Shown here: piece after piece, positions 2,838-32,430 of the stretch
Numbering within the stretch: the stretch's first letter is position 1
Layout of the letters: each line of letters starts with the position of its first letter
Origin: a virus
Reading direction: 5' to 3' (one strand)
Length of the DNA: 39,517 nt
IMG/VR virus record: IMGVR_UViG_3300048586_000636
Location: 1 to 39,517 of that record
The notes under the pieces: generated by a model
Told to the model about the DNA's origin: nothing
Database searches by the model: none
What the model saw: the letters and a program-made list of their open reading frames with translations, nothing else
Program-made: the position numbers and the translations under genes

Positions 2838-4418
2838 TTATTTCCTCTTGAGCGGGGCAATCATGGGGAACGGCGCAGGCGCCACGCCACCGCCAGGCGG
2901 GTAGGGTTTCGGCGCCTGATAGTCGGCGGCCACGGCGTTGTAGTCGGCGGGGCCAAAGGCGGGGTCGTCCTGAGCGACCAACATATAACGCTTGTTCAGC
3001 CACAGCAGATCGAACCGATAGACCCCATCCGATGCGCGGCTGTAGGTCTCGCCAACCAGCTCGCCATCCTGGGTGAAGCAGAGCACCCGGCGCCGCACTC
3101 CCATCCCGCTGATGGTCACCGTGCTTTCAATAAACCCCTGCTCCACGTTGCGCACCCCATCACGGATCCAGAAATAGTCCCGTCCCTTGCAGAGCGGGTA
3201 CTGGGTCTGCTGTTGGAGGTTGACCGGCCCCGCATACATCGGCGGGGCGCCACGCCATGCCACATCTTGTGGCTGGAATTGGCTACGCGACTCTTGGTTG
3301 GCTGCAACGGCGGTGATGGTATGGCGATATACCAGATAGGTGTATTCGGGCAGTAACGGGGTGAACTCGGTGCCTATGGTGGCCAGCGTCTGCCCAGGCT
3401 GTAGCTCTACCCAGATCCGGCTCTTTGGTTGGGCAATAAACTGCGATGAACGCACCACCACCTTGGTCTGGTAGTAACCGAACACCTGGCCATTGATGGC
3501 CGCCAAGCCCAGATAGGGGGCATCGGTTGCTCCCTCGGTCGTTACTCCCCCCACCTTCAACTTGGCCACGCCATTGAGGTAAGCCAGCTTGGCAACCACG
3601 GCGCCAGCCGCATCAAACAGCACTCCCGTTTGGCCTGGCAAAATGTTTCGAGCCCAGGCGTAGGATGGCGCCGAGCCAGAAGCAACCAGCCCAACCCCAG
3701 GTTGATGGGCAATAGCGGCACCAGCTGGCAATACCAAATCAGGCTGCAAGGCGGTGTACTGCTCCGCTGTCAGTGCTGAAAAGTCGCCATTAAATTGAGT
3801 TGGGCTTTGCTGGATAATCACCCGCACATGAGCAACACCAGTCCCTGTATACGTTGACTGGGCTCGGAGATTACTAAACCGCATGGCTGCAAATTTTTTC
3901 GGTTGGCAGGCAAAACTAAACGACTGGTTGCGGTTGCTCGCCGGGTCAGTGGTAAAGACTAAAGCGCTATCGGTAAAGCTCAAAGCACCAAAGGTGAGAG
4001 GGTATGCCCCTGACTGAGCAGCCTTCGTCAAGCTGTCCAGGTTCTGGCCATACCAAATTCCATGGCGATAGGCTCCATCATAACGGGTGCGAATTGCTGC
4101 CAGTACCGCACCGGCACCATCCAGAAACTCCAAATCCATATCTGCATAATCTGGGTTCCAGTTTCCGTTGCTTATTTCCAACCTGAAAACGTAGTTTCTG
4201 AGAGCCAAGAAGATCGTCTTGGTAGGGAGCACTCCCGTATCCCCCCCAACACCAGAGCCGTAGATAAACTTGAAAATCCCTATATCTACAGTCTCGCCAA
4301 AATTGGCATCCCAATCAGGCCCGTCCGAACTTTCAACATTGTAAAAAGGGATATTTCCCGATCCAGACTGGGATTGCACAACCACTAAAAAGCCCCTGTT
4401 CGGTGAGAAGGTTGCCAT
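2838..4418 (-). CDS. large tail-associated protein, possible receptor-binding or tip component
   Basis: A 526-aa protein with an N-terminal half rich in aromatic and beta-type segments, for example FLVVVQSQSGSGNIPFYNVE near the start and IWYGQNLDSLTKAAQSG near residue 120. The C-terminal part has a proline/glycine-rich end (KPYPPGGGVAPAPFP). It is co-directional and packed 3 bases after the preceding 405-aa-class gene. The last third (residues about 350-500) differs in style from the first, which would fit a modular tip protein. Base composition of the gene's first part (about 3700-4400) is lower in GC than the rest, hinting at exchange of the N-terminal module. No family is recognised with certainty. 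Confidence 0.65.
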   Translation of the reverse strand: MATFSPNRGFLVVVQSQSGSGNIPFYNVESSDGPDWDANFGETVDIGIFKFIYGSGVGGDTGVLPTKTIFLALRNYVFRLEISNGNWNPDYADMDLEFLDGAGAVLAAIRTRYDGAYRHGIWYGQNLDSLTKAAQSGAYPLTFGALSFTDSALVFTTDPASNRNQSFSFACQPKKFAAMRFSNLRAQSTYTGTGVAHVRVIIQQSPTQFNGDFSALTAEQYTALQPDLVLPAGAAIAHQPGVGLVASGSAPSYAWARNILPGQTGVLFDAAGAVVAKLAYLNGVAKLKVGGVTTEGATDAPYLGLAAINGQVFGYYQTKVVVRSSQFIAQPKSRIWVELQPGQTLATIGTEFTPLLPEYTYLVYRHTITAVAANQESRSQFQPQDVAWRGAPPMYAGPVNLQQQTQYPLCKGRDYFWIRDGVRNVEQGFIESTVTISGMGVRRRVLCFTQDGELVGETYSRASDGVYRFDLLWLNKRYMLVAQDDPAFGPADYNAVAADYQAPKPYPPGGGVAPAPFPMIAPLKRK

Positions 4419-4421
4419 GAC

Positions 4422-5618
4422 TTACCTCCATGGGCCGGTCAGATCAAACCCCATCAATACCTGGCCATTATTGTATGGATCCTCATGTGGCTGCATGTTG
4501 ATAAACCGAATCAACTTGCCAGGTAAGGCTGGCAAGTTATTGAAGTTTTTCCGATCCCAACCGACTACTGTGCCATACGGACACACGACACCAGGCAAAT
4601 AACCACGTAAATGGTTGCCACTTTCCACCACCATGATCGGGTCTGTGCTTACATAAAAACCGTTGTCAGGGCCATTGGGTACGTTTAACCCTGAACCGAA
4701 TCGCCCGAACAACCCTTTTAACCACCAAGAGGTAGAGCCAAATAACTGGTGATATGGGCGAGCAATAGAGCGATGTGACGATACATCAAATACGCCGCCA
4801 TTGTTGTAATACGCAAAGTATGAAGATGAGGCTACGTCCCAACGGCGTCCTGATTCATCTGCATTCGTTGTTGGGTAGTGAACGAGCAAGGCGTGATAGC
4901 GATCCCCCGGCCTGACGCTTCGCATATAACCAAACAGGTAGAGCGCTTGGCGGTTATAGGCTCCGTAATAGGGTAGGAAATAAAACAACTGGGCATCGCC
5001 TATCAGATCCCAACGGCCAGAAGAGTAGCGTTTGGTGGCGGGCCAACGGTGCTCGAAAATAGTGGTGTAGGTGTTGATATCCACCACATCCTCGACCATC
5101 GCCACTTTGGCAAGGTAAGCGCGATAAGTTACCCCTGCCCACCCGCTGAATCCGGTGTTGTCGATACGCAGGCTGACATTCCCGGACTCACTGACATTGG
5201 TCGGGCGCACGATGAAGATCTTACCGTCCCCGCTTTCGTGGGTGATCGTCCAACCCAGCGGCGCCACCTTCATGGTCATGGCCGCGCCAGACCCCGACGC
5301 CCCCGGATCCCCGGCATCCAGCTCGAACCACACCTGGGTGCTGCTGACCTGCATCACCCTGTGCTCGCCGTTGTAGGCAGCCGGGCTCACACCGGCAACC
5401 TCAACCACTGAGTCTTGCAGATAGGCATGACCACCGGTAAAGGTCGCCACTGCCCACCCCTTGGCGACATCGAAAGCCAGCACGTTGATGGTCAGAGTGC
5501 CAAAGCCGGTGACCAGCACCGCCTTGAGCAGCGCCGCTAGGGCACCCTCTGCGGTATCGCCCAGACTCGGGGCGCCTTGCATCTCGCTTGCAAACCATTT
5601 GACCTTGTATTCAGCCAT
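4422..5618 (-). CDS. tail-associated protein with exchanged C-terminal part
   Basis: A 398-aa product. I prefer the ATG at 5618 (MAEYKVKWF) because GGAGAG lies 8 bases upstream; the frame could extend seven codons further. Residues 1-150 look like a conserved tail-tip base (segments such as EGALAALLKAVLVTGFGTL). The remainder is rich in Tyr, Trp, Asn and Gly with many aromatic pairs, typical of surface-exposed phage recognition domains, and is lower in GC. Together with the next gene this is where a host-range determinant would sit in the absence of separate tail fibres. Function is inferred from position and composition. Confidence 0.65.
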   Translation of the reverse strand: MAEYKVKWFASEMQGAPSLGDTAEGALAALLKAVLVTGFGTLTINVLAFDVAKGWAVATFTGGHAYLQDSVVEVAGVSPAAYNGEHRVMQVSSTQVWFELDAGDPGASGSGAAMTMKVAPLGWTITHESGDGKIFIVRPTNVSESGNVSLRIDNTGFSGWAGVTYRAYLAKVAMVEDVVDINTYTTIFEHRWPATKRYSSGRWDLIGDAQLFYFLPYYGAYNRQALYLFGYMRSVRPGDRYHALLVHYPTTNADESGRRWDVASSSYFAYYNNGGVFDVSSHRSIARPYHQLFGSTSWWLKGLFGRFGSGLNVPNGPDNGFYVSTDPIMVVESGNHLRGYLPGVVCPYGTVVGWDRKNFNNLPALPGKLIRFINMQPHEDPYNNGQVLMGFDLTGPWR

Positions 5619-9616: not shown

Positions 9617-12450
9617 TGGCGAAGTCCTTGCTGTTTAAGAATGTTGATAAAGGCGCTGGCATTGGCCTCATCGGCCTGCAGTTCGGCTGAGCCCCCCGCC
9701 CCTTTCAGCTCTATGGTGATCCGCTCGGACAAGGGCCTGCGTGTCCCTGGGGTGTTGGTGCTGGGGGTAGATGGCGCGACAACCGGGGCCGGTGGCTGGG
9801 CAGCGGCCTGGTTGGTTTTGGCACTCTCCTTGGCCAACGCTTTGTTGAGCTCCTCTTTAAGGCGGGCCTGCATGGCCTCCATCTCTTTTTGGAACTTCTC
9901 GCCGTAATACTTGCTCCACTCGCTGTAGGCCGGAATGTCCTTGACCTTCTGGCTGTAGCGGGCCAGCTCCTCCTCCACCCCGGCAAGGGTATTGGCCAGC
10001 CCCTCGGCATTACCGCGCAGGCTATTGATATCCACGCTCTTGTAGTAGAAGGAACCGGCGTTCACTGTGCGGGTGTTGCCACTGCCGCCCCCTCCACCAC
10101 TGGATAGGCTGGTATTGGTCTGCTCGGCCTCGTCCTGAACGCCCTTGAGCCCGGCCTGCATGGCATCGGTCGCCCCCTTGGCCCGCGCGGCGGCCTCGTC
10201 AAAACTATCGCCAATGGCCGCCACTGCCTTTTTGGCCTCCCCGCTCCCCCCTTTCACCTTGGCCATGGCGTCGCTTGCGATGGCCATGGAGCGAGCCAGC
10301 GCATCCCCGGTGATTTTGCCCTGGGCGGCCAGTTGCTTCTGACGCGCGATCACCGCATCGATCTCGGCGGTGGTCTTGGCGCTGTTGTAGGCGGCGGCCA
10401 GCGCCTCCTCGATGGCGGCACTACTGGCACCCGTGTGCGCCACCAATACATCCAGGGCGCCGATGGTCTTCTGAAAGCCCGCACCGATACGGCCATTGGC
10501 CCGTTCAAAGTCCAGCCCCAACTCCTCAAACGCCTTGGCCAACTGGGCTGGGCCATCGGTGGCGGTTTGCTTGGCCACCGCATTGATCTCGGCCAGATAG
10601 TCACGGGTGCTCTTGGCCTCATCCCCCAGCGCTTTAACGGCTGCAGCGCCTTGTCGCCAGCTTCCAGTGGCATCGTCGTAATGCACCTTGCCCTCGGCGA
10701 CCAGGCGATCGAGATCCGCCATGCTGGTGATGGCAAAACCCAGCTCGCCTGACAGGGCGGCAAACTGACCATTGAGGCGGGCCTGAGTCTCGGAGCGCAG
10801 CGCTTGCGCCTCCCGGAGTGCCAGCTCAGCCTGCATCAGCTGACGCAGGGCAGAGGCGAACTGGGTGATCTGGATGATGGACTCGACCGCCACGGCGGCC
10901 AGCAGCCCCTTGACGGCGGCGCCCAGTACCCTGACCCCTATCGCCGCACCGGCTGCAGCCGTGCCCGCAGTCGTCATGCCACCTGCTGCTGTCGCGGTCG
11001 CCGCAGGCATGGCAATAAACTGGGCGTAGAGGCTGCGCAGATCACCCATCCAACCCGCGATTTTCAGGCCGACCCACGCCTGTGCCAGCACGGTCAGCGC
11101 GGTGCGCCACTCATAGAGGGTCTGGATCAGTGACTTGAGGGTTTCCCCCATGGTGATAAAGCCATCGGAGAGACGCTGAGCCCACTCCCGCAGGCGGCCA
11201 TCCTTGGCCATCGCCTCAAATTCGGCATTAAGGTTGGCCAGCTGGTTTTTGAGCCAGGCCAGCGCCCCGTTCTCTGCCACCATCCGGTAAAACTTGGCGA
11301 GATTGTCCTGAGCATTGGAGATAAGCCCGGAAAGCAGGCTCATGTTGTCAGCAGCAGCCCCGCGCGATTGGGCAGCAATCTCGTTCATCAGGGCAGAGAT
11401 GGTCTCGCGGCCCAGCTTGCCCGCCTCAGAGAGCTTCTGCAGCTCGGCAGTATTCTTGCCAGTCACCTGCTCCAGCATCTGCCAGACCGGCACGCCCCGC
11501 TCAATCAGCTGCAGGATCTCCTCGCCCTGCAGCTTCTGCTTGGCCCAGGCTTGGCCAAGGGCCAGGGAGATGCCCTGCACCTCTTCAAAACCACCGCCCA
11601 ATTTGAACGCTTGATCGACAATGCCCTGCATGGCCCCCGCCATGGGGTCGATGCCGAACGCCTTGAGGCGCACAAATACCTGGGTGACTTCACTAAGCTG
11701 CAGGGGGGTGTTCTTGGCAAAGTCCTGGATCCAGGCTGACGCCTCTTTGCCACCGGCAATTGACCCCATCACAGCCTTGAGCTGCACATCGAGGCGCTCG
11801 GCCTGATCGCCGGTCTGGAACATGGCGAGCAGTTGAGTCGTCAGGGTCTGGATACCAAACCAGGTACCCGCCAGCGCCACCAGGTGGCCGGTCAGACTGC
11901 CGATGGCCCCCTGCAAGCCACCAGCCTGCTGACTACCCTGGCTAAACTCGCGTCCCAGTCGCTCGGTCTGGGCGACACTCTTGGTCAGCTCACGCTGCAG
12001 GCGCTGCTGTTCTTGGGCAAGGTTCCTGGTATCGAGCCCGGACTGCTTGAGCCCAGCGTGGAGGCGGGTATGACTGGCGGACTGAGCGACCAGCTGGCGC
12101 TCCAGCTGCTTGACCTCGGAAGTCAGCAACCGCTCTTGTTCTGCCAGCGCCTTGGCGTCACCGCTGCCTGCTTGCTGCTCGCGACGCAACTGCTCCAACT
12201 TGTCACGGCTGAGCACCGTCGCCAGTTCGAGCTGGGTCAGGGCGGCTTTTGAGTCATTGAACTGCTGGATCAGCGCCTGCTGACGGCTTAACGATTCGAG
12301 GGTTTCAGCCAGCTGCGCCGTCTCGGCGGCCGTCTCATCCGAAATCGGGCCCAGCTCCTGCACCTCACTCGCCAAGGCGGCCAGGTCTTCCCGGCCAGTG
12401 ACCTTGGCTGCCAGCTCCAGGGCTAGTTTGAGGGTGGTTGAGGTGGACAT
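9613..12450 (-). CDS. tail tape measure protein
   Basis: A 945-aa protein. Residues about 20-200 are strongly coiled-coil (repeated Leu, Glu, Gln, Arg). They are followed by a conserved tape-measure N-terminal-type segment (about 215-370) with AWAKQKLQGEEILQLIERGVPVW. Small-residue hydrophobic stretches near 470-540 are candidate membrane-inserting segments. The C-terminal third is Ala/Lys/Glu-rich and includes a Gly-Ser linker. In this family the protein sets tail length and helps DNA passage across the membrane. Upstream of the ATG (12451-12479) there is no clear ribosome binding site; instead the next sequence is the inserted reverse-transcriptase cassette, and a diverged copy of this gene's first codons lies beyond it (14083-14170). 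Expression may therefore be altered. Confidence 0.92.
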   Translation of the reverse strand: MSTSTTLKLALELAAKVTGREDLAALASEVQELGPISDETAAETAQLAETLESLSRQQALIQQFNDSKAALTQLELATVLSRDKLEQLRREQQAGSGDAKALAEQERLLTSEVKQLERQLVAQSASHTRLHAGLKQSGLDTRNLAQEQQRLQRELTKSVAQTERLGREFSQGSQQAGGLQGAIGSLTGHLVALAGTWFGIQTLTTQLLAMFQTGDQAERLDVQLKAVMGSIAGGKEASAWIQDFAKNTPLQLSEVTQVFVRLKAFGIDPMAGAMQGIVDQAFKLGGGFEEVQGISLALGQAWAKQKLQGEEILQLIERGVPVWQMLEQVTGKNTAELQKLSEAGKLGRETISALMNEIAAQSRGAAADNMSLLSGLISNAQDNLAKFYRMVAENGALAWLKNQLANLNAEFEAMAKDGRLREWAQRLSDGFITMGETLKSLIQTLYEWRTALTVLAQAWVGLKIAGWMGDLRSLYAQFIAMPAATATAAGGMTTAGTAAAGAAIGVRVLGAAVKGLLAAVAVESIIQITQFASALRQLMQAELALREAQALRSETQARLNGQFAALSGELGFAITSMADLDRLVAEGKVHYDDATGSWRQGAAAVKALGDEAKSTRDYLAEINAVAKQTATDGPAQLAKAFEELGLDFERANGRIGAGFQKTIGALDVLVAHTGASSAAIEEALAAAYNSAKTTAEIDAVIARQKQLAAQGKITGDALARSMAIASDAMAKVKGGSGEAKKAVAAIGDSFDEAAARAKGATDAMQAGLKGVQDEAEQTNTSLSSGGGGGSGNTRTVNAGSFYYKSVDINSLRGNAEGLANTLAGVEEELARYSQKVKDIPAYSEWSKYYGEKFQKEMEAMQARLKEELNKALAKESAKTNQAAAQPPAPVVAPSTPSTNTPGTRRPLSERITIELKGAGGSAELQADEANASAFINILKQQGLRQ

Positions 12451-12727
12451 AGAGCTATCTCGTTAAATGCAGTAGCTCTGATTTTCAAGGTATGAATGAT
12501 GATTAAGGGTTTATGATGGATTAAAGAGAGTTGCGACCCAAGTGAAGCAACCGTATGATACGCCCATCACTCGACGTTAGGCGCTTGGTTCATCTGAGCC
12601 GCTTAGCGATCCACTTGTCACATTGTGATGCCTCGCGACTCGCTAGTGTCTCATCGAGTTGTTGGTTAGTTTGAGCCATGCGCTTTGCGCTAGGACCCGT
12701 CGAGTGTCTAAGTGGAGGACCGCGTTT
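12451..12727 (+). other. gene-free leader of the reverse-transcriptase cassette; candidate structured RNA
   Basis: No convincing gene lies in these 277 bases. Two structures stand out. AGAGCTA (12451-12457) pairs with TAGCTCT (12473-12479). CACTCGACG (12568-12576) is the exact inverse of CGTCGAGTG (12698-12706), enclosing 121 bases that contain smaller hairpins such as GCGC-TTT-GCGC (12681-12690 region). A closing stem around a structured core just upstream of a reverse transcriptase is the arrangement seen in retron and some defence-RT noncoding RNAs, so this is a candidate template or partner RNA. That is inference; no promoter was identified confidently. Confidence 0.35.
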
Positions 12728-12955
12728 ATGGCTAAACACTGTAACTGCGGCCTAGTTAAGGAGCGCTTAGAACTTGCGATACTACGTACCAAGTTGCTAC
12801 GAGAAAAGATTGATTTATACACTTCAGTCTTGAAATTCATCGTAGCAATTGTAGGCGTAGGCGTAACAGTCTATCCGCTAATTAACATGGCTTTTAACTA
12901 CCTCTTGATGTGGATAACCTGCTGTGAACGAACCAAGATGGCAACTGAAGTTTGA
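12728..12955 (+). CDS. small membrane protein paired with the reverse transcriptase
   Basis: A 75-aa protein. The ATG at 12728 is chosen because GGAGG lies 9 bases upstream; the longer frame to 12659 lacks such a signal. Residues 1-30 are charged and helical (CNCGLVKERLELAILRTK). They are followed by a hydrophobic region at about 35-65 that could form one long or two short membrane helices, and a short polar end containing a Cys pair. It overlaps the reverse-transcriptase start by 32 bases, so the two are likely translationally coupled. Small membrane partners are known effectors in some retrons and other RT-based defence systems, so an effector role is plausible. It is not a family I can name. 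Confidence 0.7.
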   Translation: MAKHCNCGLVKERLELAILRTKLLREKIDLYTSVLKFIVAIVGVGVTVYPLINMAFNYLLMWITCCERTKMATEV

Positions 12956-13727
12956 AGTCAAGCCTGGTTCTTGGGTCTATGTACCAACCATCGAAATTGC
13001 AAAACAGGGACGGAAACTTCATCAAGGTCTCTGGAGTAAGTATCAAAAGATAATACCGAAAAATTATTTTCATCTTCGACAAGGTGGTCATCTATCAGCT
13101 CTACACCACCACCTAGATGATCATTTTTTTTGCCATCTAGACATCTCAAATTTTTTTGGAAGTATCAGTAGGACTCGAATAACCCGGGCCCTAAAAGATA
13201 AGTTAGGGTATGACATTGCACGTAACATTGCAAAGTTGTCTACCGTACCTGTGAGCAACAACCAACCATTTAGTCATTGTTTACCTTATGGCTTTATTCA
13301 GTCGCCTATTATCGCATCCATCTGCCTTGCACAAAGTCATCTAGGTGAATCAATAATTAAAATTGAAAATAAATGCGATGTTCGAATTAGTCTTTACATG
13401 GATGATTTAATCGTTTCAGGAAAGGATCTAACTAAAACAATAACTGCCTTCGAAACATTAAAGGTCTCTGCTCATCGCTCCCACTTCATCCTTAATGAGA
13501 AAAAAGAGTGTGCTCCTAACACATTAATTGAATGCTTTAATATTCGATTATCTCACCAGCACATCAGTTTGACTAAAGATAGAATGCACCAATTTGTTTT
13601 GCAACATGTCCAAGGGAATGAACATGTACAAGATGGCATCTTGTCCTACATACAAAGTGTAAATCCCATGCAGATACCAATTTTTGAAAAGATGCTAAGC
13701 GATTATTATTCAAATAATATAGAGTAA
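12924..13727 (+). CDS. compact reverse transcriptase, probable defence-associated (UG/Abi-like)
   Basis: A 267-aa protein starting at GTG 12924. The polymerase motifs are all in order: motif A with Asp73 (HLDISNFF), motif B LPYGFIQSPIIAS (120-132), motif C YMDD (158-161), motif D around NEKKE (191-195) and a motif E-like FNIRLS (205-210). The catalytic Asp residues are present, so it is likely active. It lacks the VTG signature of canonical retron enzymes in its C-terminal region. It has no maturase domain, which excludes group II introns, and no obvious diversity-generating template/variable repeats. There is essentially no domain beyond the palm, which makes it unusually short. The gene is markedly AT-richer than the tail genes on both sides, a sign of transfer. 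I infer membership of the unknown-group RTs used in anti-phage defence, subtype unassigned. Confidence 0.88.
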   Translation: MNEPRWQLKFEVKPGSWVYVPTIEIAKQGRKLHQGLWSKYQKIIPKNYFHLRQGGHLSALHHHLDDHFFCHLDISNFFGSISRTRITRALKDKLGYDIARNIAKLSTVPVSNNQPFSHCLPYGFIQSPIIASICLAQSHLGESIIKIENKCDVRISLYMDDLIVSGKDLTKTITAFETLKVSAHRSHFILNEKKECAPNTLIECFNIRLSHQHISLTKDRMHQFVLQHVQGNEHVQDGILSYIQSVNPMQIPIFEKMLSDYYSNNIE

Positions 13728-14082: not shown

Positions 14083-14170
14083 AACCTCACCCGCCAAGGC
14101 AGCCAGGTCTTACCGGCCGGTGACCTTGGCCGCCAGCGCAAGTTTGAGGGTGGTTGAGGTGGACATGGAG
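14083..14170 (-). repeat. diverged duplicate of the tape-measure gene start
   Basis: This segment aligns with 12361-12455, the beginning of the tape-measure gene, with about ten mismatches and one 6-base gap. On the minus strand it starts with ATG at 14166 and encodes MSTSTTLKLALAAKVTGR before a TAA, so it is a dead fragment. Because it has diverged, it is more likely the relic of a related phage's tape-measure gene left by recombination than a recent duplication. It forms a direct repeat with the functional gene start, bracketing the reverse-transcriptase cassette. Confidence 0.85.
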
Positions 14171-14267
14171 CATTCCGAACAGATTCAGAGTTGCCCCATG
14201 GTAAAGGGATGGCAGAATGGGTGTGTTTATAGGAGATTACTGAGACATATCACAGGTAGACCACGAA

Positions 14268-14295: not shown

Positions 14296-14333
14296 TTGTA
14301 TCTACGGCCCTAAAATTGAATAAGGATGCATCA

Positions 14334-15407
14334 GTGAAGGATAACAATACATTCCACTCTCTCGATAAAAGAATGAAAATATCCATGCTAGAAGCAACTT
14401 TCGGTAACAGAGGTAAATGTGTATCCGTAACAAGTGGAATGTGCGGTGAGATTTACATATTTGACCAAGGCGAGAACACTCACCCTAGATATGTATGCGC
14501 AAAATTACCAAAGTCACTAGTAAATTCATCCACAGAAGAAACTAACTCTAGGTTTATAAATGAATTAAGAATGCAGCTTTCATTTTATCACCATATGTTT
14601 GTCAATTGGGCATTTGATTTTTCTATAGTGATGGATACCCCAGTAGCTTTATTCCGCTACTGGGGTAGTGATCTAGAGAAAAAAATTCAAGATCTAGGGG
14701 CCAGCACAATTGAAAAACTATCAATAATGGTGTATGTATGCTGTGGTCTAGAACATTGCTATAAAAATGGATTGGTATCACACCAGGATCTAAAACCAGC
14801 CAATATTTTCTTAAGAAGAATAAATGATCAACTTATTCTACCAGACACTGATATTTTTACTTTTGCTATTGTAGCGGATTTTGGCCTAGCAAATGCATCT
14901 ATTAACTCATCTGTTTTTGATGGTTCCAGGCCTTATATGGCTCCAGAACAATGGGAAAAAACCCATCTAACAGCCCAAACAGATATCTTTGCTTTGGGAG
15001 TCATATTATATGAGCTAATGACTGGGGGATACCATCCAGCAGGAATTAAACTTAGGGACTATTGGCCTGAGCCAATAATAGGTAACACTAAAAAATGGAC
15101 AAAACCTGATGCATGGAAAAAATGGGCTAGAAATGTAAGCATTGATTTCAACAGCACACCACAAATCACACCGGAAATAAAAACACTTATTAAAAACATG
15201 CTTAATATTGACCCTGCTAATAGACCCTCCATAAGAGAAGTAAAATTAGCCATACTGGAAATAATTAGAACAAATTCAGAAGAATGCTACATTCAGATAC
15301 TACACATTATCAATCACTATGAAAAATTAAAGTCAAGTGAGTCTTTAGAAAAAAGTTGGCCATTCTTGTGGGCTAAATGGAACAAACTTCAAGCCCAATT
15401 TGAATGA
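14334..15407 (+). CDS. eukaryote-like serine/threonine protein kinase
   Basis: I choose the GTG at 14334 (357 aa) because AAGGA lies 7 bases upstream; a TTG at 14316 without such a signal would add six residues. Numbering from that TTG, the kinase core is complete: glycine-rich loop region near 40-48 (SGMCGEIYI), Lys63 in CAKLPK, helix C Glu83, catalytic loop HQDLKPANIFL with Asp158, Lys160 and Asn163, DFG at 188-190, APE at 209-211 and Asp223. No membrane segment or extra sensory domain is visible; about 70 C-terminal residues lie beyond the core. The gene is strongly AT-rich relative to the phage and oriented against the late operon, so it is a cargo gene. Standalone kinases of this kind can act in phage exclusion, but regulation of host proteins is equally possible. 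Confidence 0.9.
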   Translation: MKDNNTFHSLDKRMKISMLEATFGNRGKCVSVTSGMCGEIYIFDQGENTHPRYVCAKLPKSLVNSSTEETNSRFINELRMQLSFYHHMFVNWAFDFSIVMDTPVALFRYWGSDLEKKIQDLGASTIEKLSIMVYVCCGLEHCYKNGLVSHQDLKPANIFLRRINDQLILPDTDIFTFAIVADFGLANASINSSVFDGSRPYMAPEQWEKTHLTAQTDIFALGVILYELMTGGYHPAGIKLRDYWPEPIIGNTKKWTKPDAWKKWARNVSIDFNSTPQITPEIKTLIKNMLNIDPANRPSIREVKLAILEIIRTNSEECYIQILHIINHYEKLKSSESLEKSWPFLWAKWNKLQAQFE

Positions 15408-19931: not shown

Positions 19932-20840
19932 ATGGATGTGATCTGCTATCTGTCTAATCTTCCCCTTAGCGGTATTACCGTCACAGATAAACCTGACGGC
20001 AGTTGGGTAAGAAATAACATCCCATTATCGGCCTTCGGCTATAGCATGCTGATCACACAAGATATGGATGTTCTCAAATCTAAGCAGAGTGAACTACACG
20101 GTCAGTTCATCCAAACATCGCAGGTTTTAATCAACGATGTAAAATCGAGCCGTGATATGGAAGAAAAGATGAACATGCTGGCTGAGATGCTATCTTTCGC
20201 TACCAACTCGCAAGTCGGTTTTATTGGTTGGAAGCACATAAAGGGAGAAAGCGAAGATAGTTGCCTTGGTCTCAGATGGACCATTGGCGGCTGTTACTCA
20301 GCAGTCAACTCACCATTTTGCTTGGTTAGATCCACCCAGGCGGTCCATTTCATCGAGTCTTGTTGGCAAGCATATAGCAAACTACGCCTCTCTAGAAAAC
20401 TAAACGTGGCTATTGACCTGTATACCATTCCTGATGCTAAACAACTCCCACTAGAGCTAAAACTGGCCACTACTTTTATTCTATTAGAGAATCAGAAGGC
20501 ATCTTATGCTGCAGAAAATTATGTGTTCAAAGATGGATGGTATCGTGATCAACAAGGGCGCCAACAAAAATTCAACCCCTTAGTGAAAGGAATGTTCCAA
20601 CAGGTGGGCATGCCTCTGTCAGATACATGGTCAACACTGAGAAACGATATTATCCACAGCGGCCTTTGTGAGTTATCGCCTGAAGACATGCACAAACAGT
20701 ACTCACTGTGCCGTGATGCAATCACAGAATACCTCCTCAGGCTATTGGGATATCAAGGCGAGTTCTTCCTCTACTCTGGCCGTGGCGACACATCCAAGAT
20801 CATTACCACATCAACGCCTGAATCCATCCAGTGCTGCTGA
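19932..20840 (+). CDS. cargo protein with C-terminal HEPN-type RNase motif
   Basis: A 302-aa protein; ATG 19932 follows AAGGA by 8 bases. The N-terminal 200 residues show no family I recognise. The C-terminal part has LRNDIIHSG, where Arg237-Asn238-x3-His242 fits the RX4-6H active site of HEPN ribonucleases, followed by a helix ending LLRLLGYQGEFFLYSG. This combination resembles the C-terminal HEPN domains of abortive-infection proteins such as ApeA-like proteins. The gene is oriented against the late operon, is less GC-rich than the flanking phage genes, and sits between virion genes G and I, so it is a cargo (moron) gene. The 131 bases upstream (19801-19931) are AT-rich and presumably hold its promoter. 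No clear terminator is visible between its stop and 20938; TGTTTAAACA at 20855-20864 is the only dyad. A role in phage exclusion is inferred. Confidence 0.75.
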   Translation: MDVICYLSNLPLSGITVTDKPDGSWVRNNIPLSAFGYSMLITQDMDVLKSKQSELHGQFIQTSQVLINDVKSSRDMEEKMNMLAEMLSFATNSQVGFIGWKHIKGESEDSCLGLRWTIGGCYSAVNSPFCLVRSTQAVHFIESCWQAYSKLRLSRKLNVAIDLYTIPDAKQLPLELKLATTFILLENQKASYAAENYVFKDGWYRDQQGRQQKFNPLVKGMFQQVGMPLSDTWSTLRNDIIHSGLCELSPEDMHKQYSLCRDAITEYLLRLLGYQGEFFLYSGRGDTSKIITTSTPESIQCC

Positions 20841-32351: not shown

Positions 32352-32430
32352 CTGCTTCTCCCTAGCTGCTCATCAGTACCCGGCCACCACGCCGAGCAGA
32401 CAGGACGGCAGGCCGCCCTGTTTCGCACCC

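Follow-up and report, generated by a model that had tools for sequence, protein, structure and literature searches.

A virus record of 39,517 nucleotides (IMG/VR record IMGVR_UViG_3300048586_000636, positions 1 to 39,517; the whole stretch is called here the window) contains an exact 9-bp inverted repeat, CACTCGACG at 12568-12576 and CGTCGAGTG at 12698-12706, located upstream of a small open reading frame (ORF) and of a reverse transcriptase (RT) gene. What does the segment enclosed by these arms do, and how is it related to the RT? A preliminary description had proposed a structured noncoding RNA (ncRNA) with closing arms that accompanies the RT, as in retrons. The results presented here argue, with a probability of roughly two in three, that the segment (12568-12706, extending as far as 12716) supplies the RNA of a compact, retron-like and probably anti-phage RT cassette provided with its own promoter.

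The geometry given in the preliminary description is exact: the arms, a1 and a2, are separated by 121 nt, and 21 nt separate 12706 from the ATG of the small ORF at 12728. Taken alone, the inverted repeat is near chance and constitutes weak evidence; exact 9-bp inverted pairs with a loop of up to 160 nt number 83 in the window (mean of 34 in block shuffles), and the fold z-score versus shuffles is -2.0 on the plus strand and -1.75 on the minus strand. Its homologues carry the repeat far beyond chance. Relatives were collected from 13 Klebsiella phage records, nine plasmids, 60 genome-collection loci and 52 viral loci (the collections partly overlap), and more than 100 related loci bear the cassette, the order being ncRNA, tiny peptide gene and RT gene in every readable region. 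A covariance model built from 22 compact sequences of the gamma/beta branch yielded 66 matches (59 distinct rows) in 100 searched sources, with E near 1e-6 for those in Enterobacteria; the window, which is among the training rows, scored 98.8 bits. In the 59 distinct rows, seven of the eight pairs of the closing stem show double compensatory changes, G-U pairs included. Over the whole structure the doubly changed cells number 135, a figure reached by none of 500 shuffles (55 +/- 6), and 90.1% of the cells pair versus 29-38% after sliding by one to three columns. These counts lean towards the structure because the alignment was fitted to it; in most loci, however, a simple search for stems, made apart from this alignment, recovered the arms as well. 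RNAalifold gave no closing stem on the first mixed alignments, since MAFFT misplaced the variable parts. No Rfam family corresponded to the RNA, either at the gathering cut-offs or at E <= 1. The conservation of the arms in homologues, and with it the proposal of a structured RNA that accompanies the RT, found strong support in relatives and covariation; as judged by comparison of sequences, the RNA is real in an evolutionary sense and is part of the RT cassette.

The layout of the RNA comprises an arm, UAG[G/C], two small hairpins, a variable hairpin and the second arm (Table 1). The smaller hairpins noticed between the arms proved to be real and conserved, above all stem-loop 2 and the GCGC stem-loop beside the 3' arm. 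Among 54 dereplicated loci, a1 is followed by TAGG in 31, TAGC in 18 and TAA in five. The place of the inverted repeat relative to the peptide start is constant, 5-30 nt upstream. TAA after the 5' arm was seen in the alphaproteobacterial RNAs of loci L005, L047, L052, L055, L056 and L063. In four other loci (L113, L114, L115 and L120) the variable hairpin contains GGGACTCCT-like units of about 9-10 nt repeated in tandem, and their copy number varies between close relatives.

The sigma-70-like promoter located before a1 is one of five such sequences in the region, where 3.4 were expected by chance. In the 54 loci, TANNNT occurs at -25 to -19 of the TAG in 65%, versus 9-17% in control windows, and TTG[AC] at -50 to -42 in 59%, versus 7-24%. 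Since these -10 and -35 elements precede a1 and lie in phase with it, the transcript probably starts there.

Two characteristics absent from the preliminary description involve the small ORF. The first is a second long-range helix, a pseudoknot, in which the strand between stem-loops 1 and 2 pairs with the leader just past a2, over the ribosome-binding site of the peptide. In 39 dereplicated RNAs of the gamma/beta branch the native helix scored a mean of 20.55, versus 14.2 +/- 0.5 for partner shuffles, none of 100,000 shuffles reached the native score, and all 39 RNAs were above their own row mean. A motif test showed contact between the partner strand and a Shine-Dalgarno-like sequence in the majority of the 39, with some exceptions. 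In the window, the exact strand is assigned tentatively: the pairing of b with b' (Table 1) matches the position of the helix in most relatives, whereas the automated scan picked a different helix of 8 bp that also involves this leader (CCGCUUAG/CUAAGUGG).

The second characteristic is a tyrosine, usually following Asn, that is the sole invariant column in 49 aligned peptides. The NY-type motif is present in 85 of 89 distinct peptides, and the remaining four carry Tyr at the same place. The peptides are 40-90 amino acids (aa) long across related loci and are under purifying selection, with a nonsynonymous to synonymous polymorphism ratio (pN/pS) of 0.40 over 102 non-independent pairs of relatives and an excess of changes at the third codon position (518/430/975). 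The peptide seemed at first to be absent from five loci, in all of which inspection revealed it. The small ORF had been called a membrane protein. The window peptide does contain a 19-aa stretch with a mean hydropathy of 2.24, and only 55 of the 85 scored relatives reach 1.6; hydropathy thus varies, and a membrane location is possible. No Pfam or PADLOC family was found for the peptide, the 49 peptides giving just single chance Pfam matches. In loci L088, L097, L099 and L100 the peptide and the RT are fused in frame into a protein of 302 aa, and, as the last three look nearly identical, one or two fusion events would account for the four. Divergent peptides were left out of the alignment with the fusions, since they misaligned onto the RT.

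The RT matches Pfam RVT_1, and its D160 and D161 are invariant, the motif reading YMDD in both the window and the consensus. In searches of PDB profiles, and likewise with PADLOC profiles, retron RTs rank first; the St85 model gave the window RT 49 bits, for a cut-off of 235. The structure model (mean predicted local distance difference test score, pLDDT, 96.9) retrieved retron RTs as its first six PDB matches by Foldseek, with DRT9 at rank 7 and DRT2 at rank 35. In region X only A59 and H63 of NAXXH are conserved at 90% or more, the N not being so; in retron and retron-like RTs, the full NAXXH is found in 59% and VTG in 47% (PMC4244168). In a tree with 22 retron, three Drt3a-search and four group II references, enterobacterial, that is, from one order and representing part of the retron types, the family forms its own clade (100/100, stem 1.84). 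Because of the origin of these references, retron or UG groups outside the sample may be closer to the family.

The cassette resembles retrons (for instance Ec86/Eco1, the St85 family, and PADLOC types II-A, VI, IX and X) in the upstream ncRNA, the closing arms followed by UAG, the two small hairpins preceding a variable hairpin, and the extra small gene in the operon. Retrons prime from the G within the conserved AGC of the msr (PMC6868368). In the cassette, most likely, the RT would bind the RNA, with its ends held by the a1/a2 stem, and would reverse-transcribe a portion of it, starting at the G after a1, in retron style, or from a tyrosine. In the gamma/beta branch the pseudoknot would cover part of the ribosome-binding site of the peptide, so that the RNA fold, altered by RT binding, by copying or by phage infection, could set the amount of peptide produced; the peptide, in turn, may work with the RT as a subunit, an effector or a primer. 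A role in defence against other phages is probable in view of the kind of RT, its carriage by phages and plasmids, and the defence-type neighbours present in some loci, namely type I and IIG restriction-modification, AbiEii and an abortive infection family.

Several observations weigh against this retron-like reading. In region Y of the RT the VTG is replaced by an invariant F205-N206, and in the tree the 22 reference retrons lie on one side of a branch that excludes the family (88/93). The five loci with UAA in the place of UAG are awkward for a universal branching G. The pseudoknot is unsupported in the 20 RNAs of the alphaproteobacterial branch (z 1.4), and translational control of the peptide is consequently proposed for the gamma/beta branch only. 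AlphaFold placed the peptide part of the fused protein with low confidence (pLDDT 40-51), and, of 20 proteins encoded nearby in other loci and compared with PADLOC models, only four matched. The retron likeness advanced beforehand stands for the layout, while the RT, of about 255 aa in relatives, with FN for VTG, a partial NAXXH and a position outside the sampled retron clade, departs from retrons in these traits, as the cassette does in the tiny tyrosine peptide and the pseudoknot over the Shine-Dalgarno sequence. The cassette most probably works like a retron, although it falls short of retron membership on account of VTG and of its place in the sampled tree.

The alternative that survives best, albeit an unlikely one, is priming by a protein in the manner of DRT9 or DRT10, in which the tyrosine of the peptide or Tyr242 of the RT would act as primer on the ncRNA, with the a1/a2 stem doing no more than shape it. 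The peptide tyrosine is the only fixed residue of a very variable protein, some loci have the peptide joined to the RT, Tyr242 in A5 does not vary, and the loci with UAA fit better with this option than with a fixed guanosine. In DRT10 (UG17) the order is also ncRNA, small protein gene and RT, all three parts are required, the ncRNA measures 137 nt, compared with 139 nt in the window, and priming takes place at C-terminal Ser/Tyr residues (PMC12632851). These residues are numbered 444-456, and the DRT10 RT must therefore be far longer than that of the cassette, a difference drawn from the description only. Moreover, the DRT10 operon includes a SLATT protein, whereas the 49 cassette peptides match neither SLATT nor any other Pfam family. 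DRT9 and DRT2, both antiviral, resemble the cassette in pairing an RT with a structured ncRNA and differ in that their RTs appear in the fold search below the best retron RTs. The DRT2 RNA is pseudoknotted as well (PMC12039810), and no relation of that pseudoknot to a peptide Shine-Dalgarno was found in the abstracts and sections consulted. Against protein priming, the layout and the position of the UAG fit retrons, whose RTs come first by both profile and fold. A further proposal, held to be slightly less probable still, is that the cassette represents a separate immune class of RT, distinct from retrons and from the described DRTs, where the peptide tyrosine, free or fused, would prime and the pseudoknot, by limiting the peptide, would meter the primer.

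It is improbable that the RNA is just a structured 5' leader that controls a toxic hydrophobic peptide, as in type I toxin systems, with the RT acting elsewhere. The pseudoknot over part of the Shine-Dalgarno sequence and the hydrophobicity of the window peptide would agree with a leader, but the closing stem, UAG and hairpins also persist in the branch where the pseudoknot lacks support, the promoter keeps in phase with a1, and some loci fuse the peptide with the RT. Finally, the inverted repeat might be a palindrome that arose by chance, or might mark the end of a mobile element, as the abundance of such pairs in the window and the direct repeat flanking the cassette (see below) could suggest. 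This reading can practically be discarded, because the closing stem covaries, and its place before the peptide start is constant.

The retron-like cassette would thus belong to a widespread lineage of RTs that are very small and have a defined RNA partner, apparently undescribed as judged against PADLOC 2023, Rfam 15, NCBIfam and open-access papers. The pseudoknot at the Shine-Dalgarno sequence, if true, would couple reverse transcription with the control of translation, and a single residue, the conserved tyrosine, offers a means of distinguishing retron-type from protein priming. The short RT and its RNA are of possible interest for retron-based production of DNA in cells.

Table 1. Parts of the RT cassette and their positions in the window
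Feature	Position	Strand	Remarks
Sigma-70-like promoter, TTGCGA-17-TATGAT	12531..12559	+	Start expected near the 5' arm
5' arm of closing stem (a1)	12568..12576	+	Exact inverse of a2; covariation
UUAGG after a1; G12580 at the position of the retron priming guanosine	12577..12581	+	Putative priming role
Stem-loop 1	12577..12607	+	3 modelled pairs, 78.8% of cells paired, weak covariation
Pseudoknot strand b, UCCACUU	12610..12616	+	Duplex with b' of -10.5 kcal/mol
Stem-loop 2, GUCACAUUGUGAU (GUCAC/GUGAU)	12617..12629	+	Almost invariant in relatives
Variable-length hairpin, candidate msd-like template hairpin	12635..12662	+	Position and variability in relatives; putative template role
Single-stranded box GUUAGUU, conserved; GUUGGUU in relatives	12665..12671	+	
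Stem-loop by the 3' arm, GCGC-UUU-GCGC	12680..12690	+	100% of cells paired
3' arm of closing stem (a2)	12698..12706	+	Exact inverse of a1; covariation
Pseudoknot strand b', AAGUGGA	12710..12716	+	Overlaps the GGA of Shine-Dalgarno GGAGG (12714-12718)
Peptide ORF, 75 aa, helical/hydrophobic; conserved Tyr58 in NY motif	12728..12955	+	
Reverse transcriptase ORF, 267 aa, YMDD intact	12924..13727	+	32-nt overlap with the peptide ORF

The cassette is carried by Mu-like and P2-like phages, by plasmids and by chromosomes of several proteobacterial classes. E. coli genomes gave no DNA match, and L001, the sole match of a single-protein viral search, was not confirmed as a relative. In locus L074 the RT (3001-3714) is C-terminally shortened, and transposase-like ORFs lie directly downstream (3740-5503). 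In the window, the surrounding minus-strand ORFs resemble phage structural genes, and one of 945 aa was taken as the putative tape-measure gene. An imperfect direct repeat (86%) of the start of this presumed gene flanks the cassette at 12362-12455 and 14084-14171, which suggests that the cassette is inserted cargo. The sister phage locus L072 bears its RT (59%) at the corresponding place.

Just downstream, on the plus strand, a 363-aa ORF (14316-15407) encodes a Ser/Thr protein kinase that resembles mad6 and PD-T4-6, two anti-phage kinases, and probably represents a second defence cargo; it is not among the ORFs listed for the sister locus L072. Another possible cargo is a 302-aa ORF at 19932-20840 (plus strand), on the strand opposite to the neighbouring phage genes, for which no Pfam, NCBIfam or PADLOC match was obtained at E <= 0.1. 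Farther away, at 32360-32428 on the minus strand, lies a full-length type II hammerhead ribozyme (Rfam RF02276, 61.6 bits, E 1.6e-10).
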